A program made the translations under genes and the position numbers. The notes below the pieces were generated by a model. The model did not search any database, was not told the DNA's origin, and saw nothing but the letters and a program-made list of their open reading frames with translations. Shown here piece by piece: positions 43,782-64,000 of a DNA stretch of 64,000 nucleotides (position 1 is its first letter; each line of letters starts with the position of its first letter). The DNA comes from Mesorhizobium sp. LNHC252B00 (GTDB lineage Bacteria; Pseudomonadota; Alphaproteobacteria; Rhizobiales; Rhizobiaceae). Location of the stretch: positions 152,958-216,957 of the forward strand of contig NZ_AYWO01000003.1 in the NCBI RefSeq assembly GCF_000502955.1, given 5' to 3'.

Positions 43782-44684
43782 ATGGCCGTAGCGCTTGTAC
43801 TCGTTTTGATTGTAGTGGGCTCGGTGCTGTTTCACCTGCTGAGCCCATGGTGGTGGACGCCGATTGCCTCGAACTGGGTCTATATCGACAACACCATCAT
43901 CATTACCTTCTGGATTACCGGCGTCGTCTTCGCCGCCGTGGTCCTATTCATGGCCTATTGCGTCTTCCGCTTCCGTCATCGGGAAGGGAACCGGGCCGCC
44001 TACGAGCCGGAGAATAAGCGGCTCGAATCCTGGTTGACGATCGTCACCGCGGTCGGGGTCACGGCGTTGCTGGTTCCCGGCCTGTTCGTCTGGAGCCGGT
44101 TCGTCAACGTCCCGAGCGACGCGACGGAGGTCGAAGTCGTCGGCCAGCAATGGCAGTGGAGTTTCCGTCTGCCCGGCAAGGACGGCAAGCTTGGCACATC
44201 CGACACCCGGGACGTCACCACCGACAATCCGCTGGGCGTGATCGCCAGCGATCCCAATGGTCAGGACGATGTCCTGGTCGAAGCGGCTGATCTGCATTTG
44301 CCGGTCGGCAAGCCGGTCAAGATGCTGCTCCGCTCGATCGATGTGCTGCATGATTTCTATGTGCCGGAATTCCGCGCCAAGATGGACATGATCCCGGGCT
44401 CGGTCACCTATTTCTGGTTCACACCGACCAAGACCGGAACCTTTCAGGTCCTGTGCGCTGAACTTTGCGGCCAGGGGCATCCCTTGATGCATGGTGTGGT
44501 CGTGGTCGACACGCAGCAGGACTACCTGGCCTGGTTTGGCCAGCAGCAGACTTTCGCGCAGTTGTCGGCACCCCAGCAAACGGGCGCGGCAGACAACGCT
44601 CCCGGGAAGACTATGGCGCCGGCCAAGACCATAGCGCCAGGTTTGAAAATTGCAGCAAAGCTCGAAACGGTCGGGTCTCGCTGA
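43782..44684 (+). CDS. Cytochrome c oxidase subunit II (alternative aa3-type)
   Basis: Accepts electrons from cytochrome c at the CuA centre. The 300-residue chain has three hydrophobic segments at the N-terminus (about 1-21, 42-65, 88-108), where two are usual. The periplasmic cupredoxin domain has QQWQWSF and VLHDFYVPEFR (first CuA His), and the CuA motif CAELCGQGHPLM (about 226-237) with both Cys, the second His and the Met. No CxxCH is present, so there is no fused cytochrome c. The last 50 residues are low-complexity. GGAGG precedes the ATG. First gene of a five-gene operon that resembles coxMNOP. Confidence 0.93.
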   Translation: MAVALVLVLIVVGSVLFHLLSPWWWTPIASNWVYIDNTIIITFWITGVVFAAVVLFMAYCVFRFRHREGNRAAYEPENKRLESWLTIVTAVGVTALLVPGLFVWSRFVNVPSDATEVEVVGQQWQWSFRLPGKDGKLGTSDTRDVTTDNPLGVIASDPNGQDDVLVEAADLHLPVGKPVKMLLRSIDVLHDFYVPEFRAKMDMIPGSVTYFWFTPTKTGTFQVLCAELCGQGHPLMHGVVVVDTQQDYLAWFGQQQTFAQLSAPQQTGAADNAPGKTMAPAKTIAPGLKIAAKLETVGSR

Positions 44685-44705
44685 AAAGGACGCGGAGGTG
44701 TTCCT

Positions 44706-46475
44706 ATGGTCGACATCACACCTGCAGATGGCATCCCCCCGGCCGAAGTCGCCGAAGTGGAGCTTTACCATCCGCACAGCTGGTGGACGAGATACGTCTT
44801 CTCGCAGGACGCCAAGGTCATAGCCATCCAGTATTCGGCGACGGCAACGGGAATCGGCCTGGTCGCCCTGGTGCTATCCTGGCTGATGCGGCTGCAACTC
44901 GGCTTCCCCGGCACGTTCGACTTCATCACCCCGGAAGCCTACTACCAGTTTATCACCATGCACGGCATGATCATGGTGATCTACCTGCTCACCGCCCTCT
45001 TTCTCGGCGGCTTCGGCAACTATCTGATTCCGCTGATGGTCGGCGCGCGCGACATGGTTTTCCCCTATGTCAACATGCTGAGCTACTGGATCTACCTGCT
45101 CGCCGTGCTGGTCCTGGTGTCGAGCTTCTTTGCACCGGGCGGACCGACGGGCGCCGGCTGGACGCTCTACCCGCCACAAGCCATCATGAGCGGCACGCCG
45201 GGCGGCCAGGACTGGGGCATCATCCTGATGCTCTCCTCGCTGATCCTGTTCATCATCGGCTTCACGATGGGCGGCCTGAACTATGTGGTGACGGTGCTGC
45301 AGGGCCGCACGCGCGGCATGACGATGATGCGCCTGCCGCTGACCGTCTGGGGCATCTTCACAGCAACCGTCATGGCGCTGCTTGCCTTTCCGGCGCTGTT
45401 CGTCGCCTGCGTCATGATGCTGCTCGACCGCGTCCTAGGCACCAGCTTCTTCATGCCGGCGATCTCCGAGATGGGCGAGCAACTGCAGCACAATGGCGGC
45501 AGCCCGATCCTGTTTCAGCACCTGTTCTGGTTCTTCGGCCATCCCGAGGTCTACATCGTGGCGTTGCCGGCCTTCGGTATCGTCTCCGACCTGATCAGCA
45601 CTCATGCACGCAAGAACATTTTCGGCTACCGGATGATGGTTTGGGCCATCGTCGGCATTGGCGCGCTGAGCTTCGTGGTCTGGGCGCATCACATGTATGT
45701 CAGCGGCATGCACCCCTATTTCGGTTTCTTCTTCGCCACCACGACGCTGATCATCGCCATTCCGACCGCCATCAAGGTCTACAACTGGGTGCTGACCTTA
45801 TGGCGCGGCGACATCCATCTCACCATACCTATGCTCTTTGCCCTGGCCTTCATCGTCACCTTCGTCAATGGTGGGTTGACCGGGTTGTTTCTTGGCAATG
45901 TCGTCGTCGATGTTCCGCTGTCCGACACGATGTTCGTCGTCGCCCACTTCCATATGGTCATGGGTGTCGCCCCGATCCTCGTGGTTTTTGGCGCGATCTA
46001 TCATTGGTACCCGAAGGTCACCGGGCGGATGCTCAACGAAATGCTGGGCCGGTTCCATTTCTGGGTCACCTTCCTCGGCGCCTACCTGATTTTCTTCCCC
46101 ATGCACTACCTCGGCCTGATGGGCGTGCCGCGGCGCTATGCTGAACTGACCGACATGACTGTCATGACCGAGTCAGCCCACCACCTGAACTCGTTCATCA
46201 GCATCATGGCGTTCATCGTCGGCTTCGCCCAGATGGTGTTCCTGTTCAATCTCATCTGGAGCATCCGCCATGGCCGCGAGGCCGGCGGCAATCCGTGGCG
46301 GGCCACGACCCTCGAATGGCAGACGCCGCAAACACCGCCCGCCCACGGCAATTTCGGCAAGGACCTGCCGATCGTCTATCGCTGGGCCTATGATTACAGC
46401 GTGCCAGGCGCCAAGGAGGATTTCATTCCGCAGAACATGCCGGGCTCCTTCGGCCCCTCGAGGGAGCCGGCATGA
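44706..46475 (+). CDS. Cytochrome c oxidase subunit I (heme-copper oxidase)
   Basis: Catalytic subunit that reduces oxygen to water and pumps protons. The 589-residue chain has about 12 helices. The heme a His lies in FITMHGMIMV, and GARDMVFPYVNMLSYW holds the D-channel Asp and Asn. FGHPEVYIVALPAFG (about 278) carries the CuB His cross-linked to Tyr and the D-channel Glu, as in A1-type oxidases. VWAHHMYVSGM contains the CuB His pair, ARKNIFGY the K-channel Lys, and VAHFHMVMG the heme His ligands. 21 bases after subunit II and overlapping the next gene by four. Confidence 0.95.
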   Translation: MVDITPADGIPPAEVAEVELYHPHSWWTRYVFSQDAKVIAIQYSATATGIGLVALVLSWLMRLQLGFPGTFDFITPEAYYQFITMHGMIMVIYLLTALFLGGFGNYLIPLMVGARDMVFPYVNMLSYWIYLLAVLVLVSSFFAPGGPTGAGWTLYPPQAIMSGTPGGQDWGIILMLSSLILFIIGFTMGGLNYVVTVLQGRTRGMTMMRLPLTVWGIFTATVMALLAFPALFVACVMMLLDRVLGTSFFMPAISEMGEQLQHNGGSPILFQHLFWFFGHPEVYIVALPAFGIVSDLISTHARKNIFGYRMMVWAIVGIGALSFVVWAHHMYVSGMHPYFGFFFATTTLIIAIPTAIKVYNWVLTLWRGDIHLTIPMLFALAFIVTFVNGGLTGLFLGNVVVDVPLSDTMFVVAHFHMVMGVAPILVVFGAIYHWYPKVTGRMLNEMLGRFHFWVTFLGAYLIFFPMHYLGLMGVPRRYAELTDMTVMTESAHHLNSFISIMAFIVGFAQMVFLFNLIWSIRHGREAGGNPWRATTLEWQTPQTPPAHGNFGKDLPIVYRWAYDYSVPGAKEDFIPQNMPGSFGPSREPA

Positions 46476-47176
46476 GCGTCATCATAGTCTTCCTGTTCGT
46501 CATCGCCGGCTTTGCCGGATGGTGGCTTTCACATCAGGGGCTGATGTCGAAGCCATGGCTCGAGCAAGGTCTGGCCGGCGATTTTGTCGCCCTCGACCGG
46601 TCGGCGCTACCCACCGCCAAAATCGGCCTCGGTGTCTTCCTCGCCGTCGTCGGCTGCCTGTTCGCGCTCTTCACCAGCGCGTATTTCATGCGGATGGCGG
46701 TGTCGGACTGGCAGCCGCTGCCGCTGCCGCGGCTGCTCTGGCTCAACACCGGCGTGCTGGTCCTGAGCAGCATTGCCCTGCAATGCGCCACGGTCGCGGC
46801 GCGCAGGGGCCAGATCGACATGGTCAGGCTCGGCCTCGCCACGGCCGGGCTCACGGCGCTTGCCTTCCTGATCGGACAGCTCATGGCATGGCGGCAGCTG
46901 ACCGCCGACGGCTATTTTCTGACCTCCAATCCGGCCAACAGCTTTTTCTACCTGATCACCGGCATGCATGGCCTGCACATACTGGGCGGGCTGGTGGGCC
47001 TCGGCAGAACAACCGCCGGCGCCTGGAACGCAGCGCGGCCCGAACGGCTTCGCCTCAGTGTCGAGTTGTGCGCCATGTACTGGCATTTCCTGCTCTTCGT
47101 CTGGCTCGCCGTCTTTGCCCTACTGGCCGGCTGGGCCGCGACGTTCATCGACATTTGCCGACAGTTGCTGACCTAA
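46472..47176 (+). CDS. Subunit III-like protein of the heme-copper oxidase (first copy)
   Basis: A 234-residue membrane protein of the cytochrome c oxidase subunit III family. Five to six hydrophobic segments are visible. The family's C-terminal half is recognisable (FFYLITGMHGLHILGGLVGL and CAMYWHFLLFVWLAVFALL), while the N-terminal half is divergent. Its ATG overlaps the subunit I stop (ATGA). A second, better conserved subunit III follows. This duplicated arrangement recalls CoxO and CoxP of the Bradyrhizobium coxMNOP cluster. Confidence 0.8.
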   Translation: MSVIIVFLFVIAGFAGWWLSHQGLMSKPWLEQGLAGDFVALDRSALPTAKIGLGVFLAVVGCLFALFTSAYFMRMAVSDWQPLPLPRLLWLNTGVLVLSSIALQCATVAARRGQIDMVRLGLATAGLTALAFLIGQLMAWRQLTADGYFLTSNPANSFFYLITGMHGLHILGGLVGLGRTTAGAWNAARPERLRLSVELCAMYWHFLLFVWLAVFALLAGWAATFIDICRQLLT

Positions 47177-47188
47177 GGGATCAAACGA

Positions 47189-47905
47189 ATGGCAGAGACA
47201 CTCACGCATACCCAGACGGAGCCACGGCCCTCAGGCTGGCAAGGCATTGCCGCCGACTGGTCCTCGGATCAGCGGGCGTTCAAGAACGTGTCCTGGGGCA
47301 AGGCCATGATGTGGATCTTCCTGCTCAGCGACACCTTCATCTTCGGCTGCTTCCTGCTCTCCTACATGACCGCTCGCATTTCGACACGCGTGCCGTGGCC
47401 TAATCCGAGCGAGGTCTTTGCGCTTCGTATCGGCGGCTCGGATATCCCGCTGATCCTTATTGCGATCATGACCTTCGTGCTGATCTCGAGCAGCGGAACA
47501 ATGGCCATGGCGGTCAATTTCGGCTATCGCCGCGACCGCCGCAAGACAGCGATCCTGATGCTTCTGACCGCGGCACTCGGCGCGACCTTTGTCGGCATGC
47601 AAGCCTTCGAATGGACCAAGCTGATCACCGAAGGGGTACGGCCCTGGGGCAACCCCTGGGGCGCCGCACAATTCGGTTCGACTTTCTTCATGATCACCGG
47701 TTTCCACGGCACCCATGTGACGATCGGGGTGATCTTCCTGATCATCGTGGCGCGCAAGGTATGGCGCGGAGATTTCGACACCGGGCGACGCGGCTTCTTC
47801 ACCAGCCGCACGGGGCGCTACGAGAATGTCGAGATCATGGGGCTGTACTGGCACTTCGTCGATCTGGTCTGGGTATTCATCTTCGCATTCTTTTATCTTT
47901 GGTGA
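47189..47905 (+). CDS. Cytochrome c oxidase subunit III (second copy)
   Basis: A 238-residue polytopic subunit III. Conserved stretches are WGKAMMWIFLLSDTFIFGCF (about 36-55), MQAFEWTKLI with the Glu near the lipid pocket, FFMITGFHGTHVTIGVIFLI, and NVEIMGLYWHFVDLVWVFIF near the end. It is 12 bases after the first copy, with AAGGGA before the ATG. Two subunit III genes in one operon is not the classical mitochondrial-type layout. Confidence 0.9.
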   Translation: MAETLTHTQTEPRPSGWQGIAADWSSDQRAFKNVSWGKAMMWIFLLSDTFIFGCFLLSYMTARISTRVPWPNPSEVFALRIGGSDIPLILIAIMTFVLISSSGTMAMAVNFGYRRDRRKTAILMLLTAALGATFVGMQAFEWTKLITEGVRPWGNPWGAAQFGSTFFMITGFHGTHVTIGVIFLIIVARKVWRGDFDTGRRGFFTSRTGRYENVEIMGLYWHFVDLVWVFIFAFFYLW

Positions 47906-47931
47906 GAGGCAGGCTTTGGTGAGAGGAAAAA

Positions 47932-57989: not shown

Positions 57990-58787
57990 TCAGGCGTTGG
58001 CGGCAGCCACCGCGCGCTTGGCCATCACCGCGATCAGATTGGCGCGATAGTCGGCCGAGGCATGGATGTCGGTCATCAAATTCTTCGCCGAAACCTTCAC
58101 GCCATCGAGCGCCGCGACCGCGAAATTCTTGGCGAGTGCGGCCTCGATCTCCTTCGAGCGGAAGACCCCGTCATCACCTGCACCGGTAACGGCAACGCTG
58201 ACGCCATCCTTGCCCTTGGCCACGAACACGCCAACGATGGCGTAGCGCGATGCCGGATTGCGGAATTTTTCATAGGCCGCCTTGGCCGGCGCGGTGAACG
58301 TGACAGCGGTGATGATTTCGCCATCCTTCAACGACGTCTCGAACAGGCCCTTGAAGAACTTGTCGGCCGCGATCTGGCGCTTGTTGGTGACGATGGTGGC
58401 GCCCAACGCCAACAGCGCCGCCGGATAATCGGCCGCCGGATCGTTGTTGGCGACCGAGCCGCCGATCGTCCCCTTGTGGCGCACCGCCGGATCGCCGATC
58501 AGCGATGCCATATGGGCAAGCGCCGGACAGGCCTTCTTCAGCTTCTCGTCGTTGGCGACAGCGTGATGCGTGGTGGCAGCACCGATGGTGACCGTCTTGC
58601 CCGACACTGTAACACCCTGCAGCTCCTTGATCCGCGACAGGTCGACAAGGTCGGACGGTGCGGCGAGCCGGGTCTTCATTGCCGGGATCAATGTCATGCC
58701 GCCCGAAAGCAGCTTGGCGTCGCCCGTCTTGACCAGCTTGGCGGCATCGGCGACCGAGGCGGCACGGTGATAATTGACTGAGTACAT
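57990..58787 (-). CDS. CO-dehydrogenase-like medium subunit (FAD-binding)
   Basis: FAD-binding subunit of a molybdenum hydroxylase of the xanthine dehydrogenase/CO dehydrogenase class. The 265-residue chain has AKLLSGGMTLIPAMKTRLA (about 24-42), TIGGSVANNDPAADYPAALL (about 111-130, FAD contact) and the C-terminal CO_deh_flav_C domain. GGGAGA precedes the ATG. Third gene of the S-L-M operon. Confidence 0.93.
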   Translation of the reverse strand: MYSVNYHRAASVADAAKLVKTGDAKLLSGGMTLIPAMKTRLAAPSDLVDLSRIKELQGVTVSGKTVTIGAATTHHAVANDEKLKKACPALAHMASLIGDPAVRHKGTIGGSVANNDPAADYPAALLALGATIVTNKRQIAADKFFKGLFETSLKDGEIITAVTFTAPAKAAYEKFRNPASRYAIVGVFVAKGKDGVSVAVTGAGDDGVFRSKEIEAALAKNFAVAALDGVKVSAKNLMTDIHASADYRANLIAVMAKRAVAAANA

Positions 58788-58901: not shown

Positions 58902-61250
58902 TCAATGTTTCGTCGCGCGGATCGCTGCCCACACGGTGGACGGCGTTGCCGGCATGGCGAGATCGTTGCTGCCGATGGCGTCGGTGATGGCATTGATCAC
59001 CGCCGGCGGCGAGCCGATGGCGCCGGCTTCGCCGCAGCCTTTGATACCGAGCGGATTGCCCGGGCATGGCGTGTTCGAGGTCGAGACCTTGAACGACGGC
59101 AGGTCGCCGGCGCGAGGCATGGTGTAGTCCATGTAGCTCGCGGTCAAAAGCTGACCGCTATTGTCATAGTGGGCGCCTTCCAGCAGCGCCTGGCCGATGC
59201 CTTGCGCAAGCCCGCCATGCACCTGACCCTCGACGATCATCGGGTTGATGATGTTGCCGAAATCGTCGGCGGCGACGAACTGGACGATCTCGGTCATGCC
59301 GGTTTCCGGGTCGACCTCGACCTCGCAGATGTAGCAGCCGGCAGGGAAGGTGAAATTCGACGGATCGTAGAACGCCGTCTCCTTCAGTCCCGGTTCCATC
59401 CCGCCCGGCAGATTATGGGCGGTGTAGGCGGCGAGCGCCATCTGGAACCACGGCACGTGCTTGTCGGTGCCGGCGACCTTCAGCGCGCCGTTCTCGATGA
59501 CGATATCGCTCTCATCGGCCTCGAGCAGATGTGCCGCGATCTTTTTGGCCTTGGCTTCGACCTTGTCGAGCGCCTTGACGATCGCCGACATGCCGACCGC
59601 GCCCGAGCGCGAGCCATAGGTGCCCATGCCCATCTGCACCTTGTCGGTATCGCCATGGACGATCGAGACGGAATCAAGCGGCACGCCGAAGCGCTCGTTG
59701 ACCAGTTGCGCGAAAGTCGTCTCATGGCCCTGGCCGTGGCTGTGCGAGCCGGTCAGCACCTCGATCGTGCCGACGGCATTGACGCGCACCTCTGCCGATT
59801 CCCACAGGCCGACACCGGCGCCGAGCGAACCGACCGCAGCGGACGGCGCGATGCCGCAGGCCTCGATGTAGCAACTCATGCCGATGCCGCGCAGCAGCCC
59901 CTTCTTGGCGGCGGCGGCCTTGCGCTTGGCAAAGCCGGCATAGTCCGACGCCTTCATTGCCGCATCGAGCGAAGCCGCATAGTCGCCGGCGTCATAGCAC
60001 ATGATGACCGGCGTCTGGTGCGGGAACGAGGTGACGAAGTTCTTGCGGCGCAACTCGGCGGGTGAAACGCCGAACTGTCGCGCGGCCGTCTCCATCATGC
60101 GTTCCATGACGAAGGTCGCTTCCGGCCGCCCTGCCCCGCGATAGGCATCGACGGGTGCGGTGTTGGTGTAGATCGCCTTCACATTGGCGTGGATCGCCGG
60201 GATGTTGTACTGGCCCGACAGCAGCGTCGCGTAGAGGTAAGTCGGCGTCGCCGACGAAAACAGTGACATATAAGCGCCGAGATTAGCCTTGGTTTCGACC
60301 TTGAGGCCGAGAATCTTGTGATCCTTGTCGAACGCCATTTCGGCATGGGTGTGATGGTCACGGCCATGCGCATCGGTGAGGAAACTCTCGGTGCGGTCGG
60401 CCACCCATTTGACCGGCACGCCGGTCTTCTTAGATGCCCATAGGCAGACGATCTCTTCGGGATAGATGTAGATTTTCGAGCCAAAGCCGCCGCCGACATC
60501 TGGCGCGATCACGCGCAGCTTGTTTTCCGGCGCGACGTTGTAGAAGGCGCTCATCACCAGCCGCGCCACATGCGGGTTCTGCGAGGTCGTCCAGCAGGTG
60601 TAATGATCCTCCGCCTTGTCATAGTGGCCAAGCGCCGCGCGCGGCTCCATGGCGTTGGGAACCAGCCGGTTGTTGATGATGTCCATCTTCACGACGTGAG
60701 CAGCCTTCTCGAAGGCCGCGGCCGTATCGTCGGCATTGCCGATATCCCAGTCGAAGATCAGATTGTTGTCGGCTTCCGGGTGGATCTGCGGCGCACCCTT
60801 GTCCATTGCCCTGGAGGCATCGACGACGGCCTTCAGCTCCTTGTAGGTGATCTCGACCGCCTCGGCGGCATCACGCGCCTGCCCCTTGGTCTCGGCGACG
60901 ACGATCACGACCGCATCGCCGACATAACGGACGCGGTCGAAGGCCAGCGGCGACCACGCCCCCATCTTCATCGGCGAGCCGTCCTTGGAGTGGATCATCC
61001 AGCCGCAGATGATGTTGCCGATACCGTCGGCCTTGAGTTCCTTGCCGGTCAGCACGCCGATGACGCCCGGCATGTCTTGAGCCTTCTTGACGTCGATCTT
61101 CTTGATCTGCGCATGCGCGTGCGGGCTGCGCACGAAGGCGGCATGCTTCATGCCTGGAACCACCATGTCGTCGACGTAGCGGCCGGCGCCGGTGATGAAC
61201 CGTTTATCTTCCTTGCGCGCGACCCGAGCGCCAACACCTTCAATGCCCAT
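58902..61250 (-). CDS. CO-dehydrogenase-like large subunit, form II
   Basis: Molybdenum cofactor subunit of the aerobic CO dehydrogenase/xanthine oxidase family; 782 residues. The active-site loop reads [12 protein letters not shown] (about residue 370), the form II signature, instead of AYxCSFR of true (form I) CoxL. Other conserved parts are [16 protein letters not shown] and [20 protein letters not shown], and near the C-terminus [20 protein letters not shown] with the catalytic Glu. GGGAGGA precedes the ATG. The gene order S-L-M also fits form II. Whether form II enzymes oxidise CO in vivo is disputed; other substrates are likely. Confidence 0.93.
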
Positions 61251-61354: not shown

Positions 61355-61855
<501 letters not shown>

Positions 61856-62054
61856 GGTCCCTCCCTGGGTATCAACCTTGGTCATCACGCTGCCGACGCG
61901 GTGTTGGCGCGTCAACCCCATGCATTATTCGTACACCGCACAACGGACAAAAAACAGCACGTCGCAAACGCGGCACATTATACTTTCGGTCATGGCCACG
62001 CCCCACCCTGCAATCCCGGCCTGCCCATTGCCAAAACACAGATTGAAGGCAACA

Positions 62055-63305
62055 ATGTTTGTCGACGCGGGCGCCAAAGCACACAAAAAACAGGGCGCGC
62101 ACAAAAACGCGTCGGAGGAAACGCGGAGAACATCGCTGGCCAATTCACGGACGCGCTATGCATGCGGCCTGTCGGCGCTCACCACGGACGAGCCCGACAT
62201 GGAGGCGTTCGCCAGGGCGATCGCGCTGGAGGCAGCCGTGATCGACGCCGGCTTTGCGCTGCTGTTCTTTTCCCAGAGCCTGGTCGAGGCCAGCGCGCTT
62301 GCCCAGGCGCTCATGACCCACGCACCGGCCCTCCATCACGCTGGCTGCTCGACCGCCGGCGAGATCACGCCGCAAGGCCTCGAGGATGGCCACGTGCTCG
62401 CCATGCTGCTTCCGTCCGCCGTGTTCACCGCCGTCAGCGTGATGGTCGACAATTTGTCGTCGTCGGGCATGGACATCATCACCAGTGAGGTCGAGGCCTT
62501 GCGGCGGTCGCTGCGCGCGCGCCTGGGTTGCGATCGCACCCAGGGAACGTTCGCGCTCTGCTTCATCGACGGACTTTCCTATGCCGAGGAAGCGGTGAGT
62601 TCGGCCATCCATTGGGGCCTAGACGACATACCGCTGCTTGGCGGCTCGGCCGGTGACGATCTGAAATTCGAGACGACGCGCCTGATCTCGAACGGCAAGG
62701 TCACCTCCGACAGCGCCATCATCGTACTGGTAGCAACCGAAATTCCTTTCCATGTCTTCAAGACCGACAATTTCGTTCCAACAGACGAAAAGCTGGTGGT
62801 GACGTCGTCAGATCCCGATCACCGCATCGTGCGCGAGTTCAATGCCACCAATGCCGCGGAGGAATATGCCGCTTCCGTCGGCATCGTCGCGCAGATGCTG
62901 ACGCCGCTGAGCTTTGCTTCGCATCCGGTGGTGGTGAAGGTCGGCGGTGAATATTACTGCCGTTCGATCCAGAAGATGCATCCCGACGGCTCGCTGTCAT
63001 TCTTCTGCGCCATCGACGATGGCGTCGTGCTGTCGATCGCCCAGCCCAAGGACATGATCGAAGCGACGCGGGCGGCACTGCGCGATGTCGAGGAGAGGCT
63101 TGGCGGCATCGACATGATCCTCGGCTTCGACTGCGTGCTGCGCCGGCTGGATGCGCGCAACCGGCAAGTGTTTCGCGACATCTCGGAACTCTACCGGGTC
63201 AACAATGTCATCGGCTTCGGCACCTATGGCGAACAGTACCGGTCGATGCATCTGAACCAGACTTTTACCGGCATCGCCTTCGGCGAGCGCCAGGCGGCGG
63301 AATAA
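62055..63305 (+). CDS. FIST-domain protein, NosP-like sensor
   Basis: A 416-residue protein with FIST_N (about 55-240) and FIST_C (about 245-395) domains. Visible blocks are HHAGCSTAGEITPQGLEDGH, PLLGGSAGDDLKFETTRLIS, and the C-terminal VNNVIGFGTYGEQYRSMHLN followed by QTFTGIAFGE. FIST proteins sense small ligands; the NosP subgroup binds nitric oxide through heme and is cotranscribed with a NahK-type kinase, and a kinase gene follows here after 14 bases. ATG 62055 (MFVDAGAKAHKK) has GAAGG upstream; an ATG at 61992 is possible. I cannot confirm the heme-ligating His from sequence alone. Confidence 0.85.
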   Translation: MFVDAGAKAHKKQGAHKNASEETRRTSLANSRTRYACGLSALTTDEPDMEAFARAIALEAAVIDAGFALLFFSQSLVEASALAQALMTHAPALHHAGCSTAGEITPQGLEDGHVLAMLLPSAVFTAVSVMVDNLSSSGMDIITSEVEALRRSLRARLGCDRTQGTFALCFIDGLSYAEEAVSSAIHWGLDDIPLLGGSAGDDLKFETTRLISNGKVTSDSAIIVLVATEIPFHVFKTDNFVPTDEKLVVTSSDPDHRIVREFNATNAAEEYAASVGIVAQMLTPLSFASHPVVVKVGGEYYCRSIQKMHPDGSLSFFCAIDDGVVLSIAQPKDMIEATRAALRDVEERLGGIDMILGFDCVLRRLDARNRQVFRDISELYRVNNVIGFGTYGEQYRSMHLNQTFTGIAFGERQAAE

Positions 63306-63319
63306 GGCGGCGGAATACG

Positions 63320-64000
63320 ATGCCGCTGAGGGACATAAACGATCTTGAAAAGCTGAAGAAGATCAACGCGGCACTGGTCAGCCGCGTCGAACGGTCGATG
63401 GACCAGCAAGGCAACGCCTTCTCGCTGTTCCAGACAGCGATTTCGCTGGAAAACCGGGTGCGCACGCGAACCGAGGAACTGCACTCGACCTTGCGCCGGC
63501 TGGAGCAATCGAACATCGACCTCAGCGCCGCCAAGGAAAACGCCGAACTGGCAAACCTGTCCAAGACAAGGTTTCTCGCCGCCGCCAGCCACGACGTGCT
63601 GCAGCCGTTGAACGCGGCCCACCTCTCCGTTTCGGCGCTCGCCGAAGTGCAGACCAGTGACGAGGGCAAGAAGCTGGTGCGGCAGGTCGAGCGCTCGCTG
63701 GAGACGATGGAGGACCTGCTGCGCACGCTGCTCGACATCTCCAAGCTCGATGCCGGCGTGGTGCAGCCCGACATAAGCGACGTCAGCCTGGAGGCGCTGT
63801 TCTCGTCGCTGCGTTCGGATTTCCAGCCGGTGGCGGAACTGAAAGGACTGTCGCTGAAGTTCCGGCCGGTCAATGCCGTGGTCCGCTCCGACCGCACGCT
63901 GCTGCGCCGCATCCTGCAGAACATCCTTTCCAACGCGCTGGGCTATACCCGCTCGGGCGGCGTGCTGGTCGGCACCAGGCATCGCGGCGACACCATCCGC
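63320..64000 (+). CDS. NahK-like hybrid sensor histidine kinase (3' end outside window)
   Basis: 227 residues are visible, with the frame open to the window edge. A coiled-coil N-terminus (LEKLKKINAALVSRVERSMD; ENRVRTRTEELHSTLRRLEQ) leads into the H-box FLAAASHDVLQPLNAAHLSV with the phospho-accepting His at 91. The X region LLDISKLDAG follows, then the start of the ATPase domain with the N-box RRILQNILSNALGYTRSGG (Asn 201/205). The H-box form ASHDxLQPLNAA is that of NahK-type kinases. ATG 63320 lies 14 bases after the FIST stop. A C-terminal receiver domain, usual in this group, would be outside. Confidence 0.88.
   Translation, partial: MPLRDINDLEKLKKINAALVSRVERSMDQQGNAFSLFQTAISLENRVRTRTEELHSTLRRLEQSNIDLSAAKENAELANLSKTRFLAAASHDVLQPLNAAHLSVSALAEVQTSDEGKKLVRQVERSLETMEDLLRTLLDISKLDAGVVQPDISDVSLEALFSSLRSDFQPVAELKGLSLKFRPVNAVVRSDRTLLRRILQNILSNALGYTRSGGVLVGTRHRGDTIR

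Follow-up and report, generated by a model that had tools for sequence, protein, structure and literature searches.

A FIST protein and NahK/ErcS-family kinase divergent from a coxSLM-like operon: a candidate switch for small-molecule oxidation genes in Mesorhizobium

Reports from several species describe FIST proteins that bind heme and NO and modulate the kinases encoded beside them (PMC12570481, PMC11237717, PMC11784011); PMC8846402 is more cautious on the link between FIST and NO. A gene pair of this kind lies at the end of a 64,000-nucleotide stretch of the Mesorhizobium sp. LNHC252B00 genome (the window), where a sequence-only reading had taken it for a NosP/NahK-like pair that might sense NO made during denitrification or by the host in nodules. 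The step from a FIST–kinase pair to NO sensing takes homology alone as its basis, and the testable evidence leans away from it. What, then, might this pair sense, and which genes might it control? The features of the locus are listed in Table 1; coordinates beyond the window are given as window position = L002 position + 61542.

Table 1. Features of the FIST–kinase locus in window coordinates
Feature	Position	Strand	Basis or remark
coxM-like FAD subunit	57990..58787	-	NCBIfam
coxL-like molybdenum subunit, form II motif AYRGAGR at residue 369	58902..61250	-	Motif and NCBIfam
coxS-like small subunit	61355..61855 (longest ORF to 61921)	-	Start inferred at MSDVS, GGGAGGG upstream
Conserved 14-bp element, candidate operator	61978..61991	+	Window copy TTATACTTTCGGTC, consensus TTGTACTTTCGGTC
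FIST-domain protein, part conserved among relatives	62148..63305	+	FIST_N and FIST_C
Codon AAT (Asn), residue 239 counted from 62055	62769..62771	+	Alignment; His in 81/83 broad relatives
NahK/ErcS-family hybrid histidine kinase	63320..64000, on to 64660 outside the window	+	Pfam and NCBIfam

The FIST protein and its kinase

The FIST protein carries both domains of its kind above the Pfam gathering score, near complete and in the same open reading frame (FIST_N, PF08495, 132.1 bits, cut-off 23.2; FIST_C, PF10442, 78.3 bits, cut-off 28.5), and is the single FIST match in the entire 6.8-Mb genome. Where it begins is less clear. An in-frame ATG does stand at 62055, the start previously assumed, but the codon is not conserved and frame-breaking indels directly after it in relatives make this start doubtful; conservation at the protein level begins near 62148. 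The ATG that some relatives have behind GGAGGAA is ACG in the window (62121-62123; L002:579-581) and is out of frame in others, so that the FIST start codon is uncertain across the genus.

Measured against the NosP equivalog model (NCBIfam NF041558), the protein scores 382.9 bits against a cut-off of 450. Three relatives likewise fall below the cut-off (L050, 381.2; L051, 422.5; the Bradyrhizobium protein L171, 424.7), and the Legionella protein L142 (471.4) and L110 (472) are above it. Another mark of a NosP, a place beside a NahK/ErcS-family kinase, is present at a gap of 14 bases.

An AlphaFold model of the FIST protein (pLDDT 95.3) matched the FIST domain of FBXO22 (8s7d_D; Z 21.8, 260 residues, 3.1 Å), in agreement with the published FBXO22 FIST fold (PMC11185555). 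Chorismatase (Z 13.6) and cyanuric acid hydrolase (Z 12.1) followed. The predicted fold is thus like that of all three proteins, but their functions differ and identity in those rows is at most 15%; the shared fold is no proof of function. We noticed no heme protein among the fold-match rows displayed, which is no evidence against heme. A search by sequence for a solved homologue gave no FIST protein among its matches, and there were no PHROGs matches.

The open reading frames and domain matches bear out the described order of genes, with a kinase of NahK-type H-box (ASHDVLQPLNAA) after the FIST gene. They also bear out the expectation that the kinase continues past the window: at full length it has 446 amino acids, of which about 80 N-terminal residues are followed by HisKA, HATPase_c and, past 64000, the Response_reg receiver domain that the sequence-only reading had proposed to look for. 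Residues 1-80 have no Pfam match at E 0.1, leaving the kinase without a recognised sensor of its own. It matches the NahK/ErcS family model NF041832 over the whole profile (1-370 of 370) with 413.2-413.5 bits, above the cut-off of 400, and reaches 362.7 bits on the model for NahK proper (NF041831, 854 positions, cut-off 1500), where its best stretch covers profile 479-854. The label NosP/NahK-like therefore stands for the kinase family and fails for NosP proper and NahK proper.

The pairing of the two genes is far from chance, since FIST is present in 33/37 genomes of the genus and a kinase stands behind it in all 15 loci with long flanks. A strict N-terminal helix pattern, drawn up by eye, occurs in 19/37 kinases directly after FIST (H-box matched) and in 0/10 other kinases of the same loci. 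This signature of FIST-adjacent kinases is suggestive of a docking element.

Genes around the pair and a conserved intergenic element

Downstream of the kinase lie a GNAT-family gene and, on the opposite strand and convergent, a LuxR-type regulator with REC and GerE domains. A c-di-GMP output does not fit this arrangement: the adjacent regulator is without GGDEF, EAL or HD-GYP, and the scanned neighbours carry other domains. The best NCBIfam family for the regulator is ErdR (NF041830), though its 208.1-208.7 bits, like the 229.5 bits of a paralogue, are below the cut-off of 390.

This paralogue belongs to a second set of the same layout. Only two NahK/ErcS kinases in the genome are above the cut-off (413.2-413.5 and 405.7 bits; the next scores 183.2), and strong ErdR-like regulators are likewise two (229.5 and 208.1-208.7; the next scores 94.4), each convergent with, and just behind, one of the two kinases. 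The second kinase, of 1169 amino acids (G000 contig C4, L049:5160-8669), faces its convergent ErdR-like regulator at L049:8785-9465. Its PAS domain, kinase core and receiver follow an N-terminal part of about 640 residues in which there is no Pfam match at E 1e-5. Judged by family score, length and neighbour, the L049 kinase and regulator are probably a CrbS/CrbR (MxtR-type) acetate system. The window kinase and regulator share the kinase-core and LuxR-regulator families of CrbS/CrbR (MxtR/ErdR) and have the same convergent layout in the genome, but in CrbS the sensor is within one long protein, whereas in the window system it would be the separate FIST protein. On the simplest reading, the window kinase and regulator descend from an ancient duplication of a CrbS/CrbR-like pair and have a separate FIST protein as their sensor.

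On the other side, divergent from FIST, lie three genes with the marks of a form II CO dehydrogenase as defined in PMC12582533, namely the AYRGAGR motif and the order S-L-M. For each of CoxS, CoxL and CoxM the best NCBIfam match is a glyceraldehyde dehydrogenase subunit, and all are under cut-off, so that the family score does not fix the substrate; CoxL, for instance, scores 674.5 on the glyceraldehyde dehydrogenase model (cut-off 790) and 653.6 on the CO dehydrogenase model (cut-off 991.15). A CO-oxidising Phyllobacteriaceae isolate is reported to have a form II CO dehydrogenase and no form I; its CoxL shares 91.8% similarity with a protein of 'Mesorhizobium zhangyense' (PMC12582533). Further CoxL-like proteins with AYRGAGR are encoded at G000 C26:37056-39407 and C15:23783-26050, 55% and 45% identical to that of the window. 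Elsewhere in the window (43782-47907), Pfam matches to COX2 and COX1 and a subunit III recognised by similarity mark a cytochrome oxidase cluster that resembles plasmid-borne clusters of Sinorhizobium, Neorhizobium and Rhizobium.

The arrangement is conserved. All 15 genus loci with long flanks have the kinase and the divergent coxSLM, and 13 have the convergent regulator. Such synteny within the genus is weak proof, because unrelated genes belong to the same conserved stretch. The FIST–kinase–regulator set also occurs in single loci of three other families (L050, L051 and L052), of which L051 alone has the divergent coxSLM. Across the order, FIST matches at E 0.001, including weak ones, occur in 109/397 genomes; within this set, other genera of the same family have a match in 1/12 genomes, at 39% identity. 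On plasmid p1METDI of Methylorubrum extorquens DM4 (L005), a FIST gene lies about 2.8 kb past an acetate symporter gene and encodes Asn at the position of His239; no kinase of NahK/ErcS type was found beside it.

When the coxS–FIST intergenic regions of L051, the window and 15 further genus loci were aligned, one sharp block stood out, ATTGTACTTTCGGTC. The window copy of the 14-bp element within this region is one base off the consensus and is the sole site with at most one mismatch in its genome. Exact copies of TTGTACTTTCGGTC occur in 18/397 genomes of the order, at one site per genome, and 15 of the 18 lie between coxS and FIST (7 in the genus and 4 in each of two other families; the remaining 3 lie elsewhere). 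Eight of these 15 come from the genus or from the genome of L051, the group that defined the element; outside that group, 7/10 exact sites are between coxS and FIST. The reversed 14-mer, used as a control pattern, had 15 sites, counted by eye and irrespective of place.

Among the best 30 FIST loci of the order (109 genomes with a match), the element, at no more than one mismatch, was found in 15/17 loci with a divergent coxS and in 0/11 without coxS within the 1.5 kb fetched; the other 2 stop at a contig end and carry it. The counts among the 17 coxS loci are not independent, as 9 are from the genus; in the other eight, FIST is 47-57% identical to that of the window. Two of the 15 coxS-linked carriers belong to a further family, and the two remaining coxS-linked loci show 3 and 4 mismatches. 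Between the element and the conserved FIST start there are 110-261 bp, but its distance from coxS varies widely (about 120 bp to 1 kb), so that it may serve FIST alone.

The element was considered as an ACTU (CrbR) site and rejected, its resemblance to the published motif being weak. Most of the aligned genus rows (L183-L201) have conserved blocks like CGAATCCAACGTCTAAT and AACTGTTAATAATGC in front of acs, and the first of them fits the published ACTU motif better than the 14-bp element does, by eye. We regard a match in L052, 5.6 kb from FIST and with 2 mismatches, as a chance occurrence. Beyond the element, at 62023-62035 in the window, the aligned genus loci share another conserved block, similar to CCCCATTGCCAAA, that L051 lacks.

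Residue 239 and the settings of FIST–kinase pairs elsewhere

We aligned 133 FIST proteins. Residue 239 is His in 81 of the 83 broad relatives, the exceptions being a Methylorubrum orphan FIST and one Bradyrhizobium protein, and is Asn in the window, in 36/36 other genus rows and in 8/13 other Rhizobiales rows. Relatedness adds to this contrast, since the broad rows are those nearest to an Azospirillum query and the genus and other-Rhizobiales rows include some genomes twice. Cys360 and His399 are present in all 133 rows. Of four f27 loci with the element, three keep His239 but have Gly at Cys98, and the fourth has Asn. The replacement of His239, a possible heme ligand, makes heme-based sensing less likely.

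From 101 FIST rows we built a quick maximum-likelihood tree with residue 239 masked and SH-aLRT support; in it the window falls within nested groups of 18 (support 96), 23 (99) and 33 rows (98). No c-di-GMP partner was seen in the 33-row group, in which some flanks are short and four context labels are assumed. The two Legionella rows fall in a separate group of 20 (support 100), together with 7 of the 13 c-di-GMP-labelled rows and one LuxR-labelled row. For rows outside the 80 loci named in the survey below, context labels were assigned manually; L008, L022, L028 and L036 were assumed to share the context of their genus-mates, and many rows with short flanks have no label.

The neighbours of FIST genes were surveyed in the best 80 of 585 loci found with the Azospirillum query, of which 78 were counted (L133 and L152, in which no FIST open reading frame was called, were dropped); with this query and selection, the shares do not describe FIST proteins overall. 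Kinase clusters were recognised by mutual similarity, and of every other cluster one representative was scanned by profile. A kinase of the same clusters is present in 74/78 loci, 72 of which have it immediately behind FIST. Members of the LuxR regulator cluster are found in 33 loci, GGDEF or GGDEF-EAL regulators in 13, both in none, and neither kind in the stretch seen of 32. The other neighbours include an ExaC-type aldehyde dehydrogenase cluster (by its representative) in 22/78, a PQQ alcohol dehydrogenase cluster in 16/78, DUF779 in 15/78 and a molybdenum oxidoreductase in 5/78. Oxidation genes accompany 23/33 of the LuxR loci, 2/13 of the c-di-GMP loci and 6/32 of the loci with neither (LuxR versus c-di-GMP, Fisher p 0.0012, for loci that are related and not independent). 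The DUF779 gene beside an ExaC-type aldehyde dehydrogenase recurs near FIST–kinase pairs in L103, L104, L112, L122, L159, L162, L182 and others. The PQQ alcohol dehydrogenase and ExaC genes of the typical neighbourhood are absent from the window cluster. Five Bradyrhizobium loci unite the PQQ-alcohol and form II cox settings: all five have FIST, kinase and PQQ alcohol dehydrogenase, LuxR regulators are called in four of them, and a form II coxL is present in four.

A link of FIST–kinase–LuxR genes with alcohol oxidation is already known. In Leucaena bacteroids of strain NGR234, expression of these genes is reported to rise along with that of pqq genes and a PQQ-linked alcohol dehydrogenase, and the study raises the question whether the FIST, kinase and LuxR genes control the PQQ genes (PMC3732241); in P. 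putida the homologues are located in the ped alcohol cluster (PMC12997753). The Pseudomonas sets (PP_2663-PedS1-AgmR(PedR1) in P. putida, NosP-NahK-ErbR in P. aeruginosa, in the ped/exa cluster) likewise combine a FIST-type gene, a NahK/ErcS hybrid kinase and a LuxR regulator. Compared with them by description, the window has a FIST protein below the NosP cut-off with Asn at 239, a kinase of 446 amino acids, roughly half of the 854 positions of the NahK model, and coxSLM as neighbour in place of PQQ alcohol dehydrogenases. NGR_b03210-b03240 of NGR234 (pseudoazurin, kinase, FIST and LuxR regulator, beside PQQ genes), again compared by description, is likewise a rhizobial FIST set with adjacent oxidation genes; the FIST protein of Sinorhizobium medicae is 38.8% identical to that of the window and stands on another branch of the tree. 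Legionella NosP-NahK-NarR and Burkholderia nosRPK resemble the window in having a FIST protein that controls an adjacent soluble kinase, as the FIST protein of the window might, but their output is a c-di-GMP-type response regulator (degenerate in Burkholderia), whereas that of the window would be a LuxR-type DNA-binding regulator. In the literature surveyed we recognised no description of a FIST–kinase pair beside coxSLM, nor any mention of the coxSLM link, the 14-bp element or the histidine change.

A proposed circuit and its alternatives

The reading that we favour, at somewhat better than even confidence, is a FIST-gated two-component system that acts through the LuxR regulator on genes for the oxidation of a small molecule such as CO or an aldehyde. 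Gene content, domains, conserved order and the conserved element, all observed, are its basis. From these we infer that the FIST protein would be a detachable sensor that docks on the soluble kinase and sets its autophosphorylation. Phosphate would pass, through or beside the kinase's own receiver, to the convergent ErdR/ErbR/CrbR-like LuxR regulator. This in turn would act on the FIST–coxS intergenic region, most simply at the TTGTACTTTCGGTC element, and so control both the FIST–kinase operon and the divergent form II CO dehydrogenase-like coxSLM. The ligand would most likely be a small molecule tied to oxidation (an alcohol, an aldehyde or CO), with NO possible. The adjacency of kinase and regulator may mislead as to the phosphotransfer partner, as the homologous kinase of P. 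aeruginosa is reported to pass phosphate to HptB and not to the LuxR regulator encoded nearby (PMC11784011).

A true NosP/NahK-type sensor, in which NO on the heme of the FIST protein alters the kinase and couples NO from denitrification or the nodule to gene expression, appears unlikely to us, although it is the strongest of the alternatives. The pairing is that of the biochemically studied P. aeruginosa, Legionella and Burkholderia pairs (PMC12570481, PMC11237717, PMC11784011), Cys98, Cys360 and His399 are kept in the window FIST (each in 83/83 broad relatives), and the gene context is compatible with NO sensing, since the NosP of P. aeruginosa is likewise encoded in an alcohol-oxidation cluster, next to a LuxR gene. 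The genome carries nirK, and also nodA, which bears out the description of the host as a rhizobium. The proposed link to denitrification or nodulation, however, does not emerge from the gene content of the genus. NirK above cut-off is found in 20/33 FIST-bearing and 4/4 FIST-less genomes, no positive association; nodA is found in 23/33 FIST-bearing and 1/4 FIST-less genomes, and 10 of the 13 genomes without nodA have FIST. The score below the NosP cut-off, Asn at residue 239 throughout the genus and the placement of the window in the 33-row group, apart from the Legionella rows, also speak against this alternative. On sequence evidence, NO sensing by the window FIST protein is not indicated.

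We consider it improbable that the FIST–kinase–regulator set and coxSLM are unrelated neighbours, the set regulating C2/C3 carbon use elsewhere as its CrbS/CrbR-type paralogue would for acetate. Within the genome, the CrbS/CrbR-like pair is the closest to the window kinase and regulator, and CrbS/R is reported to be needed for growth on acetate and its loss to delay nodulation in S. fredii (PMC9100948). Yet the cox–FIST arrangement recurs with the element in four families, at 42-57% FIST identity outside the genus.

Heme proteins of the FIST kind can bind CO. A CO sensor, in which the FIST protein bears heme and the divergent form II CO dehydrogenase is induced in response to CO, would accord with this, with the conserved coxSLM, its motif and S-L-M order, and with the Phyllobacteriaceae CO oxidiser with form II only (PMC12582533), but we rate it as the least probable alternative, given that the histidine that could be a heme ligand is lost, that CoxL matches glyceraldehyde dehydrogenase best with every match under cut-off, and that L050 and L052 have the FIST–kinase–regulator set but no cox in the stretch.

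Being the one site of its kind in the genome, the 14-bp element offers a direct experimental handle on the locus and on the favoured circuit of FIST-gated control of oxidation genes. Beyond this locus, the family model of NCBI assigns the name 'nitric oxide-sensing protein' to such genes on the strength of homology. Our observations suggest that many members of the NosP-model family accompany alcohol or aldehyde oxidation instead, and that one Rhizobiales branch of FIST–kinase pairs accompanies form II CO dehydrogenases. As a tentative extension, which we hold to be possible but doubtful, the pairs of the window's branch may be not NO sensors but substrate or product sensors (of an aldehyde or CO) for the divergent form II molybdenum oxidoreductase, having given up the NosP-like histidine and working through a LuxR regulator at one operator per genome; the main role of the NosP family would then be to switch small-molecule oxidation, while some of its branches would sense NO.
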